A DNA stretch of 64,000 bases from Flavobacterium commune (GTDB lineage Bacteria > Bacteroidota > Bacteroidia > Flavobacteriales > Flavobacteriaceae). The notes beneath the pieces are model-generated. The model saw only the letters and a list, made by a program, of their open reading frames with translations. It made no database searches and was not told the DNA's origin. Where the stretch lies: positions 248,001 through 312,000 of the forward strand of contig NZ_CP017774.1 of the NCBI RefSeq assembly GCF_001857965.1, in the 5' to 3' direction. Shown here piece by piece: positions 1 through 57,681 of the stretch (positions are counted from its first letter, which is position 1; each line of letters begins with the position of its first letter). The translations under genes and the position numbers were made by a program.

Positions 1-34
1 CCCCAACCTCGCCAAGCGCCAGAACGTTATAGGC
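1..34 (+). repeat. Right end of an attC-like site (truncated by window start)
   Basis: The window opens in the right arm of a repeat like those at 751-887 and 1597-1727. It closes on AACGTTATAGG, with the GTT at 26-28. The left arm would lie upstream of the window, so at least one more cassette or the attI site probably precedes it. Confidence 0.55.
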
Positions 35-70
35 TATGGTAGGACGACCCAACAAAATTGAGAACAAACA

Positions 71-745
71 ATGAATAAAGACTTTTTCATAAAACAACTT
101 GACGACATTTTGAGTGATTTTAATAAAATAAAATCAAAGGCTCAATATGACGACTTATCTGGAAATGTGACCATTGAGGAAATATCATCTGTATTGACAA
201 AAGCCAAAGCTGCAATTGCTCGTATTGTAGGTGACAACTCAGAATATTATAAAGACACAGAAGCAACGTTGAAACGAACAAATATTCACGAAGGAAATAA
301 ATTGAGACACATTGCAGGAACTGTTACTGCGTTAAAAAGTGACCTACAAAATGACTACCTCAAATCTTTCAGTAATATTGTTCAATCAGAGGTCTTTTCC
401 GACTATTTAGAAATGGCAGACCATTTATTAACTGAGGGTTATAAAGACCCCGCAGCTGTTTTAATTGGTTCAACTTTAGAAGTTCATTTAAGGGAACTTT
501 GTATTTCAAACAACATTGACGTTGAAGTAACAAATAATAAAGGAAATAAAAGCCCCAAAAAAGCTGACCTAATGAATGCTGATTTAGCCAAAGCAGGTAT
601 TTATTCGTCTGCTTACCAAAAACAAATTGTTGCTTGGCTAGACCTACGAAATAAAGCTGCTCACGGAAAATATCATGAATATAAGACAGAAGAAGTGTCA
701 TTAATGCTACAAGGCATTAGACAATTTATACTAACGACAAAGTAA
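71..745 (+). CDS. HEPN-like cassette protein (cassette 1)
   Basis: This 224-residue protein is encoded by the only gene of cassette 1. The N-terminal half is helical with no motif I recognise. The C-terminal half (about 97-222) resembles HEPN/DUF4145-type four-helix proteins: the helix containing AAVLIGSTLEVHLREL is followed by DLRNKAAHGKY. The latter carries R193-N-K-A-A-H198, which fits the R-x4-xH ribonuclease signature of HEPN domains. HEPN proteins are often RNases or toxins in conflict systems, so a defence or addiction role is possible but only inferred. The ATG lies 45 bp after the cassette's GTT, and the stop is 5 bp before the attC-like repeat. I cannot name a characterised homologue. 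Confidence 0.75.
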   Translation: MNKDFFIKQLDDILSDFNKIKSKAQYDDLSGNVTIEEISSVLTKAKAAIARIVGDNSEYYKDTEATLKRTNIHEGNKLRHIAGTVTALKSDLQNDYLKSFSNIVQSEVFSDYLEMADHLLTEGYKDPAAVLIGSTLEVHLRELCISNNIDVEVTNNKGNKSPKKADLMNADLAKAGIYSSAYQKQIVAWLDLRNKAAHGKYHEYKTEEVSLMLQGIRQFILTTK

Positions 746-750
746 CCACA

Positions 751-887
751 GCCTATAACACGGGTTTTGCGTCAGGCGGGCTGATGTGCAAACTTGAAGC
801 TTTGTGCTTTTAATGAACTTTAGTAATAAATTTAAACTTTGTGCTTCGTAAACCCGCCCGAACGCAAAGCCCGAAAACGTTATGCCT
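751..887 (+). repeat. attC-like site 1
   Basis: The repeat opens with GCCTATAAC (751-759) and closes on AACGTTATGCC, with GTT at 879-881. Its arms at 761-780 and 853-873 pair almost completely, with one extra base in the right arm, like the extrahelical bases of attC stems. The middle holds two near-copies of an ACTTTGTGCTTC-like stretch. The opening sequence is complementary to the start of cassette 1 (26-40) with one mismatch in 15. Confidence 0.7.
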
Positions 888-906
888 CAGTTTAAAAGAA
901 CCGAAA

Positions 907-1389
907 ATGGAAAACATACACGAATTAATTGAGTACAATCTTAAATTTATAAAAAACAAAACTAACTTTAGAATAAGACGACTTGAGTTAAAAAATTTAG
1001 AAGGAAATACGTTGCCCACAAACGATTGTATCTCTTTACATAGAATATTAATAGAAAAGAATCTTTTGTTTGAAAATGAACATAAAGATTTATTTTTAAC
1101 TGGACTTGCAGAAGAAATAATATTAAACGGAGGTTGGATAAAACATTTAGAATTAGAAAAACTGAAATCAGAAAAAGCAGAATTTAAAGATGTTTTAGAA
1201 ATCGAAAATCTAAAACTACAAAAAGAAAATTCTGAATACACTAAAACTTTACGCCAAAAAGAAGCTGAAATCCGAAACCTAACTAGGGATAATTTGAGGC
1301 TTAATAATTGGGATATTAGATTTAGATGGGTAATTGCTATAATAACATTTTTAATTGGATTCATAACTAAATATTTTATTGACAACTAA
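907..1389 (+). CDS. Coiled-coil, C-terminally anchored hypothetical protein (cassette 2)
   Basis: I start this 160-residue protein at ATG 907 rather than at an in-frame GTG at 841, because 841-906 lies inside the attC-like repeat and its conserved end. Residues 1-80 form a mixed helical region of unknown fold. Residues about 80-132 are rich in Lys, Glu and Leu with heptad character (LELEKLKSEKAEF and following), so a coiled coil is likely. A single hydrophobic segment at about 138-157 (WVIAIITFLIGFI) would anchor the C-terminus in the membrane. I do not recognise a family. A 207-bp tail follows the stop before the next attC-like repeat. Confidence 0.65.
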   Translation: MENIHELIEYNLKFIKNKTNFRIRRLELKNLEGNTLPTNDCISLHRILIEKNLLFENEHKDLFLTGLAEEIILNGGWIKHLELEKLKSEKAEFKDVLEIENLKLQKENSEYTKTLRQKEAEIRNLTRDNLRLNNWDIRFRWVIAIITFLIGFITKYFIDN

Positions 1390-1537
1390 CAAGGTATTTT
1401 ATCAAAGCTAATGTTCCGACTATCAAAAAGGAATAGACTAGGAATTGAGCAACTTTACTTAAAATATATTCTATCAAATAAAACGTATCAGAACTAAAAA
1501 AAGCTTTTATTTTAGACATAATAAAAAATAATTAACT

Positions 1538-1563
1538 ACTTCCGACTTAAACGGTGCGGAAGT
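1538..1563. other. Small hairpin in the tail of cassette 2
   Basis: ACTTCCG (1538-1544) and CGGAAGT (1557-1563) can pair across a 12-nt loop. There is no T-run after it, so it is not a clear intrinsic terminator. The rest of 1390-1596 shows no gene or other signal. Confidence 0.3.
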
Positions 1564-1596
1564 TTGACCGAAAATTGGAATAAATAAAAAACCGAA

Positions 1597-1727
1597 GGCA
1601 TAACAGCTGTCTGTGGCTATTGTGGAGTTTAGTGGAATTACCGTTTCGCAATCATATTTCTGCAAAGCAGAAACTACTCAGGTTACGAACTTCCACAACA
1701 GCCACAGGCAGCGGGACGTTATGTGTA
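1597..1727 (+). repeat. attC-like site 2
   Basis: This is the best-paired site of the array. It opens with GGCATAAC (1597-1604), complementary to the start of cassette 2 (879-886). It ends on GACGTTATGTG, with GTT at 1718-1720. The arms at 1606-1626 and 1692-1712 pair at 19 of 21 positions. The terminal loop is about 65 nt and includes the near-palindromic TTTCTGCAAAGCAGAAA. Confidence 0.75.
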
Positions 1728-1746
1728 AGCTTAAAAAGACAGACCA

Positions 1747-2856
1747 ATGAATTGTTACGTATGCGACATAGAAATTACAGCCGACAATGAAACGGACGAA
1801 CATATCCTTATCAATGCAGCTGGTGGACGACTTAAATCGAAAGAGTTAATTTGCAGTAAATGCAATTCTGACTTCGGAGAAAGCATTGACGGAATTTTAG
1901 CCAAACAACTTAATAATTTGGCAAATATGCTTATGGTAAAAAGACACCGAGGTGAACCGCAGCCAATTATTGGCAACAAGAAATCTACAGGTGAAAAATA
2001 CCTCCTTGAAGTTGGAGGCAAACCAAAGCTTACCAAACCAACCATAGACAAAACCGTTGACGGGGACAAAACAAATATTTCAATTACAGCAAGGAGCGAA
2101 AAGGAATTAAGAGAAATACTGACTGGCATTGCAAAAAAACATCCGCACTTTGACGTTGAAGAAGCGATGAAGTCCGCACAATGGCGAGAAGAGCACTTTG
2201 ACGAAGCTTTACATTTTCAAAATACAATTGGAGGCAATGAAGTATTTAGGGCAATCTGCAAATGCGCAACGAATTATTTTATTTACTGCAAAGGTGACCC
2301 TGCACAAATCAAACATCTTATCCCTTACATAAAAGGCGAAGAACAAAAAGAAATTGTTTGGATGCATTACCAAGACAATTTATATGAATTAAGACCAGAT
2401 GAAAGTTCCCACGTTATTCATTTAGTCGGAAACAAACAAGGAGGTATTTTATATTGTTACGTTGACTATTTTAATACACATAAATATTTAGTGTTACTCA
2501 ATGACAACTATCAAGGTCAAGACATTAAACAAACATATTTCTTCGACTTGGTCAATGTTGTTCCCATTCAACGGGAAGTAACAATTGACTACGATAAAAA
2601 GACTTTACTTGAGTTTTTTACGAACAAAGACGCAAAACCATTTGAGAAAGTTAAAAAATCATTTGACCATTCCATAGCACTTGGCTTAAAACGACAAGAC
2701 GACCACCAAAGAGGAGAATTACTTGAGAGGGCAATTCAAAATTCATTAGGAAAATATCCTGAAGGAACAATTATTACGGAGGAAATGATTAACGAGACAG
2801 TGAATGAAATTATGAAAAACATAACGCCTTATCTTCTCAGAGGAATGAAAAAATAA
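1747..2856 (+). CDS. HNH-type zinc-finger nuclease-like protein (cassette 3, gene 1)
   Basis: The N-terminus of this 369-residue protein has the arrangement of the HNH_5-type family. A CxxC pair (C3, C6) is followed by DEHIL (H19), an AAGGRL stretch and a second CxxC (C36, C39) running into N40 and FG. The two CxxC pairs would hold a structural zinc, and H19/N40 would sit in the beta-beta-alpha metal site. The remaining ~300 residues are not recognised. HNH proteins with long unknown C-terminal regions are frequent in restriction and other anti-phage systems; that role here is inference. The gene starts 29 bp after the cassette's GTT. It is followed after 15 bp by a second gene in the same cassette, so the two are probably co-transcribed and move together. 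Confidence 0.72.
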   Translation: MNCYVCDIEITADNETDEHILINAAGGRLKSKELICSKCNSDFGESIDGILAKQLNNLANMLMVKRHRGEPQPIIGNKKSTGEKYLLEVGGKPKLTKPTIDKTVDGDKTNISITARSEKELREILTGIAKKHPHFDVEEAMKSAQWREEHFDEALHFQNTIGGNEVFRAICKCATNYFIYCKGDPAQIKHLIPYIKGEEQKEIVWMHYQDNLYELRPDESSHVIHLVGNKQGGILYCYVDYFNTHKYLVLLNDNYQGQDIKQTYFFDLVNVVPIQREVTIDYDKKTLLEFFTNKDAKPFEKVKKSFDHSIALGLKRQDDHQRGELLERAIQNSLGKYPEGTIITEEMINETVNEIMKNITPYLLRGMKK

Positions 2857-2871
2857 ATTAAGAAAATATTT

Positions 2872-3378
2872 ATGGCAAAAAATAAATTGAGTAGAAACTT
2901 TAAAGCAAAGCCTGACAAAGACATGTGGGCTACTATATGTCCTCCAATGGAATACCGAGTTATTACAGGAGAGAAAGCGTATGAATTAGGGATTGTTCCT
3001 GCAGGAATGACTGGCGTTAATTCTGTTGCTATTGGTGCTTCTGGAAGTACAGCGGATACCATAATGTATTTTGCAAATTATTTTCGAATTGACAAAACTG
3101 AAATTGACCAAGAACCATACATCGAACTATACGAAAGTGGTTTAACTCAATCTAGCATTTATGGTATTTTACACCATGCAGACTTTAGTGGACGGACAGA
3201 AACATTAGATAATTCACAATTATTAAAAATTGCAGCTAGTGGTTCGACAACAGACATACAATTTACAGCTAAACCGGACAAAAATGAAGGGACATTAAAT
3301 GAATTGAGAAGTCAAAATAAAATATTTGGTTTTGATTATGCATATGGACAAGGGATGAAAAAGAAAGACGATAAATAA
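2872..3378 (+). CDS. Hypothetical partner protein (cassette 3, gene 2)
   Basis: This 168-residue protein starts 15 bp after the HNH-type gene and shares its cassette. It has no signal peptide or membrane segment. A basic N-terminus precedes a segment that looks like an alpha/beta domain (ITGEKAYELGIVPAGMTGVN), followed by a glycine/serine-rich stretch (VAIGASGSTADT). I recognise no family. Sharing a cassette suggests it works with, or restrains, the HNH-type protein, for example as an immunity or accessory subunit, but nothing in the sequence proves it. The stop is 2 bp before the attC-like repeat. Confidence 0.65.
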   Translation: MAKNKLSRNFKAKPDKDMWATICPPMEYRVITGEKAYELGIVPAGMTGVNSVAIGASGSTADTIMYFANYFRIDKTEIDQEPYIELYESGLTQSSIYGILHHADFSGRTETLDNSQLLKIAASGSTTDIQFTAKPDKNEGTLNELRSQNKIFGFDYAYGQGMKKKDDK

Positions 3379-3520
3379 GCCTACACATAACAGCAACTAC
3401 CCAAAAGGCGGGGTTTCGTTTTCCAAAGACAGTTCGTTGGTTAATCAAACATTAGTTTTTCAAATTAAGTTTTGTGGTATAAGTCCCGCCCTTCGGATAG
3501 CTGCAAACCGTTGGCAGACA
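3379..3520 (+). repeat. attC-like site 3
   Basis: The repeat opens with CCTACACATAAC, complementary to the start of cassette 3 (1718-1732) at 14 of 15 positions when 3377-3391 is used. It closes on AACCGTTGGCAG, with GTT at 3510-3512. The arms at 3393-3413 and 3484-3504 pair at 16 of 21 positions. The mismatches I see are all transitions, which would still allow G-T pairs on one strand. Confidence 0.68.
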
Positions 3521-3566
3521 TATCACTCGAAAAAACGAAAAATAAAATTAATCAAAAAATAAAATT

Positions 3567-4361
3567 ATGACACCGAAACAACTTGTAAAACTGAGTAACG
3601 CAATTGGAATAACAGCGATAGTTCTATTAGTTTATTGGGTTTTTACATTTATTATAATTCAAGTTTTCGGATTAAAAGTTTTTAGAGAAAATATGACAGA
3701 AACGTTTTATTTGAGCGTTTTGGGAATTCTTGCTTTAATGGTTGGCTCATTAATTATAAACGTAATGTTTAATCTGACAAGAATTGCAGAAACCAAAAAT
3801 AACGATGAAAATAATGCAAAATCGAATAAAAAAACATATTTAATTCTTTTTATAATTTTTCCAATAATTGGAATAATATTATTTGGTGGCGATTATTTAA
3901 CATCCAGCAAAAAAGAAAAAATGCTGATAAAATCTGCAAAATCAATTTTAGAGAAAAACGAAAAGAATAGTTCAAAATTAGTTAACTATGAATTTTCAGA
4001 AAAATATATAAATGAAACAAGTAATATTTTAGAAATCTATTCAGAAACGGATAAAAATTTCCCAAGTGTAAATTTATTAGTTAAGGATAGTATAAATGGT
4101 TCACCTGTTTATTTAGGATTTAACCAAAGTAATTTTGAAAAGTTAAACGACACAATTGAAGCAAATAAAAAAGAATATCTATACAAAACAACTCAAGAAG
4201 AAAGAGAATATTTAGACAAAGTATTTAGCGGAAAAAGTGAAGAATTAAGATATAGCAATCACGATGGCGAATATGAATTATTTTATCCATACAAAAAAGG
4301 TAAAAAAACAATTGTTTTATATTTTTCGGAGTATGTGAGATACGGAAAATTAGGTAGTTAA
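3567..4361 (+). CDS. Three-TM membrane protein with exported domain (cassette 4)
   Basis: This 264-residue protein is the only gene of cassette 4. Three hydrophobic segments are evident at about 11-33, 47-68 and 91-108 (TYLILFIIFPIIGIILFGG). A Lys/Asn-rich loop separates the second from the third. Residues about 115-264 form a soluble, mostly polar domain rich in Lys, Glu and Tyr, presumably outside the membrane. I recognise no catalytic motif or family. The long AT-rich leader (3513-3566) and absence of a visible Shine-Dalgarno are normal for this phylum. The stop is 13 bp before attC-like site 4. Confidence 0.68.
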   Translation: MTPKQLVKLSNAIGITAIVLLVYWVFTFIIIQVFGLKVFRENMTETFYLSVLGILALMVGSLIINVMFNLTRIAETKNNDENNAKSNKKTYLILFIIFPIIGIILFGGDYLTSSKKEKMLIKSAKSILEKNEKNSSKLVNYEFSEKYINETSNILEIYSETDKNFPSVNLLVKDSINGSPVYLGFNQSNFEKLNDTIEANKKEYLYKTTQEEREYLDKVFSGKSEELRYSNHDGEYELFYPYKKGKKTIVLYFSEYVRYGKLGS

Positions 4362-4374
4362 AAAAAGTTACGAT

Positions 4375-4510
4375 CTGCCAACAGCCGTTACACGAGATTT
4401 GGGCATTAGGTTGAATTTAAAGATGGTTTTGTACTTGGAAAATTTGTGTTTAACCGAAAAACCTCGCGTATTTAACCCCAAACCCGCTGTAGGGCCAGAA
4501 CGTTCAGCAC
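4375..4510 (+). repeat. attC-like site 4 (last of the array)
   Basis: The site opens with CTGCCAAC (4375-4382), complementary to the start of cassette 4 (3510-3517), and ends on AACGTTCAGC with GTT at 4502-4504. Pairing is weaker than in the other sites: ACAGC/GCTGT (4381-4385 with 4486-4490) and TACACGAG/CTCGCGTA (4389-4396 with 4463-4470, one mismatch). No cassette end complementary to GTTCAGC follows, so this looks like the array terminus. Confidence 0.58.
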
Positions 4511-57369: not shown

Positions 57370-57441
57370 TAGTCCGTAGGGGAATCGAACCCCTGTTACC
57401 AGGATGAAAACCTGGCGTCCTAACCCCTAGACGAACGGACC
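57370..57441 (-). tRNA. tRNA-Glu (UUC), copy 1
   Basis: A full cloverleaf is readable: acceptor GGTCCGT paired with ACGGACT, a D-arm containing CTAGGGGTTAGGA, the anticodon stem-loop CCAGGTTTTCATCCTGG (anticodon TTC), and a T-arm AGGGGTTCGATTCCCCT. CCA is not encoded. Its D-loop and T-stem differ from the other two copies. Confidence 0.95.
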
Positions 57442-57487
57442 AATTATTCCTCTAAGTTAGTTAAGTTTTCTACCTTCTAGAAACTTG

Positions 57488-57559
57488 TAGTCCGTGGGGG
57501 AATCGAACCCCCCTTACCAGGATGAAAACCTGGCGTCCTAACCGATAGACGAACGGACC
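57488..57559 (-). tRNA. tRNA-Glu (UUC), copy 2
   Basis: Cloverleaf with the same acceptor and anticodon arms as copy 1, a D-arm with CTATCGGTTAGGA, and a T-arm GGGGGTTCGATTCCCCC. It appears identical to copy 3. CCA is not encoded. Confidence 0.95.
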
Positions 57560-57609
57560 ATTTTTCCTTTTAAAAAAGTTCAGGAAAGATATTTTCAATA
57601 TTTCATTTG

Positions 57610-57681
57610 TAGTCCGTGGGGGAATCGAACCCCCCTTACCAGGATGAAAACCTGGCGTCCTAACCGATAGACGAACGGACC
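57610..57681 (-). tRNA. tRNA-Glu (UUC), copy 3
   Basis: Cloverleaf appears identical to copy 2. A ~50-bp spacer separates each of the three genes. As the most promoter-proximal copy on the minus strand, it probably heads a single tRNA transcript. Confidence 0.95.

Follow-up and report, generated by a model that had tools for sequence, protein, structure and literature searches.

Canonical integrons, including the sedentary chromosomal ones of the Vibrio type, combine an integrase, an adjoining attI site and an array of one-directional cassettes, each carrying an attC site, with G/TT borders, reciprocal ends and a spacer asymmetry of about 4 nt. The additional domain (I2) of their integrases is used to define and find integron integrases in surveys (PMC2426708, PMC8352920), and is credited with enabling single-strand recombination and said to dock the extrahelical bases of the folded site (PMC7790495), the first of which is described as the main director of strand choice (PMC2727003). 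Also described are a complete integron in Salinibacter, given as the one example of IntegronFinder 2.0 in Bacteroidetes proper (PMC9024848), archaeal integrons with the additional domain (PMC9668308), and an integron-like subgroup of tyrosine recombinases in which the insertion is called essential for integron function (Smyshlyaev 2021, PMC8138268), the portions of that last paper available to us yielding no cassette array of an insertion-less form. Here, we describe a cassette array at the start of a 64,000-nucleotide stretch of the Flavobacterium commune chromosome (G000:C1:248001-312000, the whole of which we call the window) that is probably a divergent form of sedentary chromosomal integron (a probability of roughly 0.85 in our estimate, from sequence comparison), with an integrase lacking I2. 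Integron-like working is well supported by comparison, while the locus falls outside the strict, I2-defined integron family. We found no report of I2-less integrons in the open-licence PMC literature, preprints and subscription papers being outside the search, and an earlier description is possible.

The window opens within the array. A first-pass annotation, made from the letters of the window, had placed the recombinase outside it and proposed an upstream scan for an intI-like gene and an attI; a tyrosine recombinase gene and an attI-like site were located there, the gene ending 0.8 kb before the window and 153 bp separating its stop codon from the first cassette. As in Treponema-type integrons (PMC3607928), the integrase is transcribed towards attI and in the cassette direction. 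The annotation had also described four units, each with one or two same-strand genes and an inverted repeat of about 130 bp ending in GTT. Open reading frames (ORFs), site coordinates and the scores of a covariance model (R1, see below) confirm this for the four inside the window, and the true total is five, all with ORFs on the + strand. The features are as follows, where L009 is the fetched locus of the genome itself (G000), L and G numbers denote loci and genomes, and plain numbers are window positions:

L009:6155-7207 (G000:C1:246155-247207), +, tyrosine recombinase of 350 aa
L009:7362-8026 (window -638 to 26), +, cassette 0; ORF at L009:7378-7857; window 1..26 is its right end
L009:7899-8033, +, attC-like site of cassette 0; R1 100.4 bits, E 2.9e-20
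27..879, +, cassette 1; ORF 71-745, with a weak HEPN match under the Pfam cut-off
752..886, +, attC-like site of cassette 1; R1 77.0 bits, E 5.9e-15
880..1718, +, cassette 2; ORF 907-1389, no Pfam family
1597..1725, +, attC-like site of cassette 2; R1 78.1 bits, E 3.2e-15
1719..3510, +, cassette 3; ORF 1747-2856 with an HNH_5 domain and ORF 2872-3378 without Pfam family
3384..3517, +, attC-like site of cassette 3; R1 64.4 bits, E 4e-12
3511..4502, +, cassette 4; ORF 3567-4361, whose first third looks hydrophobic on visual inspection, no family above cut-off
4375..4507, +, attC-like site of cassette 4 and end of the array; R1 58.0 bits, E 1.1e-10

The integrase matches the integron integrase family TIGR02249 at G000:C1 246386-247204, with the match divided over model positions 1-177 and 242-315, and the whole protein scores 201.2 bits, below the family cut-off of 265. 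Its motif spacing is 65 residues, with a gap in the alignment against 2a3v, and the spacing is 65-68 in all 78 relatives that could be parsed (80 examined), compared to 107 in all 19 parsed canonical IntI (20 examined). Thus, the integrase and all parsed relatives lack the I2 of about 40 residues that integron integrases carry. In a phylogenetic tree, this short family is grouped with IntI and apart from 20 Bacteroidota XerC/D (100/97), and it further differs from XerC, XerD and XerA in sharing the C-terminal ending of IntI, namely SP-hydrophobic-D (or a similar last residue), which is found in 65/77 family members, 20/20 IntI and 0/20 Xer proteins (a narrower pattern, SPL only, is found in 52/77 and 2/20).

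Residues 1-56 of the integrase (L009:6155-6322) form a small extra N-terminal domain of the order strand-strand-helix-strand-strand-helix, which in some relatives weakly resembles HARP or DUF5710. Among 30 such N-termini, profile matches were obtained to HARP in 3 (best E 6.5e-4) and to DUF5710 in 7, with none for the F. commune protein, and the best structural match was the SMARCAL1 HARP domain 4o66 (E 1.1, probability 0.25); a HARP-like reader of DNA structure is thus only a lead. Integrase relatives in G016, G023, G047, G066, G081 and G096 lie within open frames of 590-614 residues, which perhaps indicates a large N-terminal extension.

The arms of the attC-like sites were not taken as proof of their existence. 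A crude palindrome scan detected four sites at scores of 22.5-32.5 and missed the fifth, and shuffled DNA reached 27.5 in 20 shuffles, such that stem pairing by itself is not clearly above the level of shuffled DNA. We relied instead on R1, a covariance model of 32 sites from the loci of eight other genomes, picked from 59 listed sites to limit near-copies; these eight were the ones that yielded a model alignment among 20 loci fetched from genus genomes with an integrase relative, and the five sites of the present array were outside the training set. R1 shows two-sided changes at all 16 consensus pairs. It recovers all five sites on the + strand (E 2.9e-20 to 1.1e-10), and over the remainder of the window no match reaches E 1, the clipped right end of the first site (window 1-33) also scoring. 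This recovery by a model trained on other genomes only establishes that the sites are real; a covariance search had been among the checks suggested in the first-pass annotation. Its further reading, that each unit starts with the reverse complement of its own end, agrees with 14, 14, 12 and 15 matching bases of 16 for cassettes 0, 1, 2 and 3, and with 9 of 16, all contiguous, for cassette 4, and the extra unpaired base it saw in its site 1 is present at 752-886.

The attI-like site of the locus would be cut at L009:7361. A test that uses the attC of the first cassette to predict where that cassette starts was applied to 16 loci, of which six lacked a site within reach; L043 was excluded, its single scan hit being no array. 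In the remaining nine arrays, the predicted start lies 92-207 bp past the integrase stop, with 8/8 bases in eight of them and 6/8 in L040. The motif TGCGTRTAT...GTT, which was composed by eye out of the same loci in which it was counted, directly precedes the first cassette in 7/9 nearer loci and is otherwise absent from both strands of their 115,816 bp; in more distant arrays, different words precede GTT. On this comparative footing only, a putative attI lies beside the integrase.

The cassette logic is seen most extensively in G072, a genome of the same genus, where 247 copies of the right-arm motif occupy one strand (0 on the other) over 176.5 kb beside the integrase (G072:C1:3076090-3252594), an array of the size of a Vibrio superintegron. 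Of its 246 cassettes, 242 could be parsed, and in 231 of these the start is the reverse complement of the cassette's own site (at least 8/9 bases), compared to 43/241 when sites are paired with the wrong cassette. The first-pass annotation had proposed mobile cassettes, a view it would have given up if a strain comparison placed their borders off GTT or showed that their genes never move independently; put to relatives, this check left the view standing. One cassette is common to L178 (G122) and L182 (G157), which belong to different families:

L178:8930-10229 and L182:11922-13220, -, shared cassette with a Sul3-like gene

The two copies are identical in 1296/1300 alignment columns, while their 400-bp flanks are identical in only 177/422 and 171/445 (42% and 38%), and both borders fall at G/TT. 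The encoded protein is a dihydropteroate synthase (DHPS) nearest to Sul3 (353 bits, under the Sul3 cut-off of 475 and over the DHPS cut-off), and both genomes have a short integrase (spacing 65 and 66) beside the array. This cassette, as shared by L178 and L182, indicates that cassettes of this kind are mobile with borders at G/TT. Other near-identical stretches among the fetched loci were over integrases, between close relatives, or short. In 398 genomes of the genus, its own among them, a search with cassette 3 of the window that scored two candidates in each gave 32 matches, of which the own one covers the whole cassette, two cover the gene part (73-74%) and 29 the attC part alone (77-93% identity); R1 found no site in the two loci with a gene-part match.

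The architecture of the sites differs from that of canonical attC. Using one method for both sets, independent of R1, we compared 96 distinct stems of the short-integrase type (22 of 24 loci gave sites) with 21 canonical stems (6 of 13 loci); in both sets, the longer right spacer defined the strand, and related stems are not independent. The integrases have a motif spacing of 107 in the six canonical loci, and of 65-68 in 23 of the 24 loci of the short type (L116 could not be read). No unpaired extra base was found in 81/96 stems of the short type (one in 12, two in 3), whereas 0/21 canonical stems lack one (one in 2, two in 10, three in 9), the canonical extra bases lying nearly all in the left arm (47 vs 2). 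The extrahelical bases characteristic of integrons are thus mostly missing from the type overall. In their place, the short type shows directional mismatches (left/right) of A/G 127 times against 4 for G/A, and T/C 68 times against 1 for C/T, the corresponding canonical counts being 2, 1, 0 and 1. In a larger set, selected with R1 and possibly biased towards the R1 consensus, the mismatches fall at nt 15 (115/125 stems) and nt 6 (86/125) after the left AAC, and extra bases number none in 87/141 sites, one in 46 and more in 8. The hairpin is more stable on the bottom strand in 111/149 sites. The site features thus differ in step with the enzyme: I2 is absent, extrahelical bases are mostly absent, and directional mismatches stand in their place. 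Two further marks of the type were tried and dropped, namely spacer asymmetry, which canonical sites share (about 4 nt), and the bases after GTT. From the latter, the first-pass annotation had argued that the sites stand apart and that the recombinase may be divergent; divergent it is, through the missing I2, but GTTAT or GTTAG is also found at the sites of canonical IntI loci of this phylum, and that part of the argument fails.

Among 101 genus genomes (own included), 55 hold an integrase relative at E 1e-40 and 88 an R1 match at E 1e-4, with a median of 17 sites in genomes with the integrase (n=55) vs 2 in those without (n=46); at most 33 candidates were scored per genome, so high counts are lower bounds. 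Around 80 relatives, R1 sites occur in 33 loci and never on both sides of the integrase: in 24 they lie downstream, in its direction, and in 9 they lie upstream and are reversed. One of the 33, L094, comes from the same contig as training locus L044, and a few others nearly duplicate each other. The 33 include Flavobacteriaceae, Chitinophagaceae, Cyclobacteriaceae and Prolixibacteraceae. A reciprocal scan free of R1 found at least two sites in 20/80 loci, vs 0/80 when each was shuffled once. In a sample of the phylum, a relative at E 1e-60 is present in 73/296 genomes (own included), the arrays having been checked for few, and canonical IntI over its cut-off in 105/395, among those listed one in the window's own class. 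Together, these comparisons show the integrase-attI-array layout, covariation within the sites, reciprocal ends, the exact borders of one shared cassette in relatives, the absence of I2 and the scarcity of extrahelical bases.

Several observations weigh against reading the locus as a sedentary chromosomal integron. Of the 46 genus genomes that have no integrase at E 1e-40, nine nevertheless hold at least 10 sites (G010, G012, G013, G014, G021, G036, G044, G054 and G067), and their best recombinase is 32-37% identical and about as long as XerC/D. Such genomes, with many sites and no family integrase, would fit a cluster of attC sites lacking an integrase (CALIN), the sites being relics, or having been brought in and rearranged by a canonical IntI encoded elsewhere, with the neighboring XerD-like gene unrelated. 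However, canonical IntI over the cut-off occurs in 0/101 genus genomes and in 0/9 genomes checked (G122 and G157 included), and arrays in several of the phylum's families have this integrase family next to them; as an integrase adjoins the present array, 0.8 kb upstream of the window, it is not an integrase-less cluster, and we consider this explanation very improbable. The same genomes would suit the action of host XerC/XerD on the folded sites, as with Xer-exploiting elements, since Xer enzymes are without I2 and can use phage hairpin DNA (PMC7790495). This we regard as equally improbable: attI and the side on which the array lies go together with the family integrase, and at E 0.001 R1 finds no site in 20 Xer loci, nor in 20 canonical IntI loci, all of them short. 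The integron reading further has to accommodate 47/80 loci with no R1 site, many of them on contigs ending close by, and L043, a 62% relative with no site in the 19.5 kb fetched. Mobility rests on only one clear case of a shared cassette, and no gain or loss of any window cassette was shown at its own locus. Two of the five sites fold slightly better on the top strand, the bottom strand being more stable in three, and four further sites of the same type lie off the array (G000:C1 1753915-1754048, 1754598-1754731, 1227413-1227547 and 3076090-3076223).

In the mechanism we favor, that of a sedentary chromosomal integron, the adjacent I2-less tyrosine recombinase would insert circular cassettes at attI, and would excise or reorder them by cutting at G/TT in an attC folded from one strand, probably the bottom one. 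The strand may be chosen by the directional mismatches conserved at nt 6 and nt 15 past the left AAC, together with the unequal spacer, the mismatches being proposed as a substitute for extrahelical bases because I2, said to dock such bases, is missing. We infer catalysis by the array's own integrase, the single-stranded folded substrate and the role of the mismatches.

How the I2-less state arose is a separate matter. Canonical IntI forms a single clade (100/100), and IntI and the short family come out as sisters. The family may be a sister integron lineage that never acquired I2 and whose choice of strand relies on wobble mismatches built into the site instead of extrahelical bases, a reading we put forward tentatively and with appreciably less than even confidence. 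Because the two are sisters, the pattern is accounted for equally well by a single gain and by a single loss at the family's base, and descent from a full IntI that lost I2, which would leave the integron otherwise as described, strikes us as having nearly even odds. The single IntI clade and the short form in 78/78 parsed relatives speak against a loss, but the tree itself cannot decide.

Beyond the array lies mazG on the opposite strand. A promoter scan, which does not cover Bacteroidota promoters, gave 3 promoter-like sites vs 2.6 expected by chance. Cas10 was rejected for the cassette 4 protein, where one weak PADLOC match (E 3.8e-4) to part of the model was taken as chance. An Rfam scan of the window returned only tRNAs, three of them in a row at 57370-57681 on the - strand.

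An I2-less type of integron spread over the genus and several families would mean that I2-based surveys miss integrons, since I2 is used to define and find their integrases, and comparable systems in related bacteria have apparently gone unnoticed. The shared cassette points, in one case, to a recent exchange across family boundaries, the cargo being a relative of a sulfonamide-resistance gene. The type would also offer a natural experiment on how integrases select a single hairpin strand and avoid a second exchange. If the lineage has indeed been without I2 from the start, the capture of cassettes at folded sites would predate the domain credited with enabling it.

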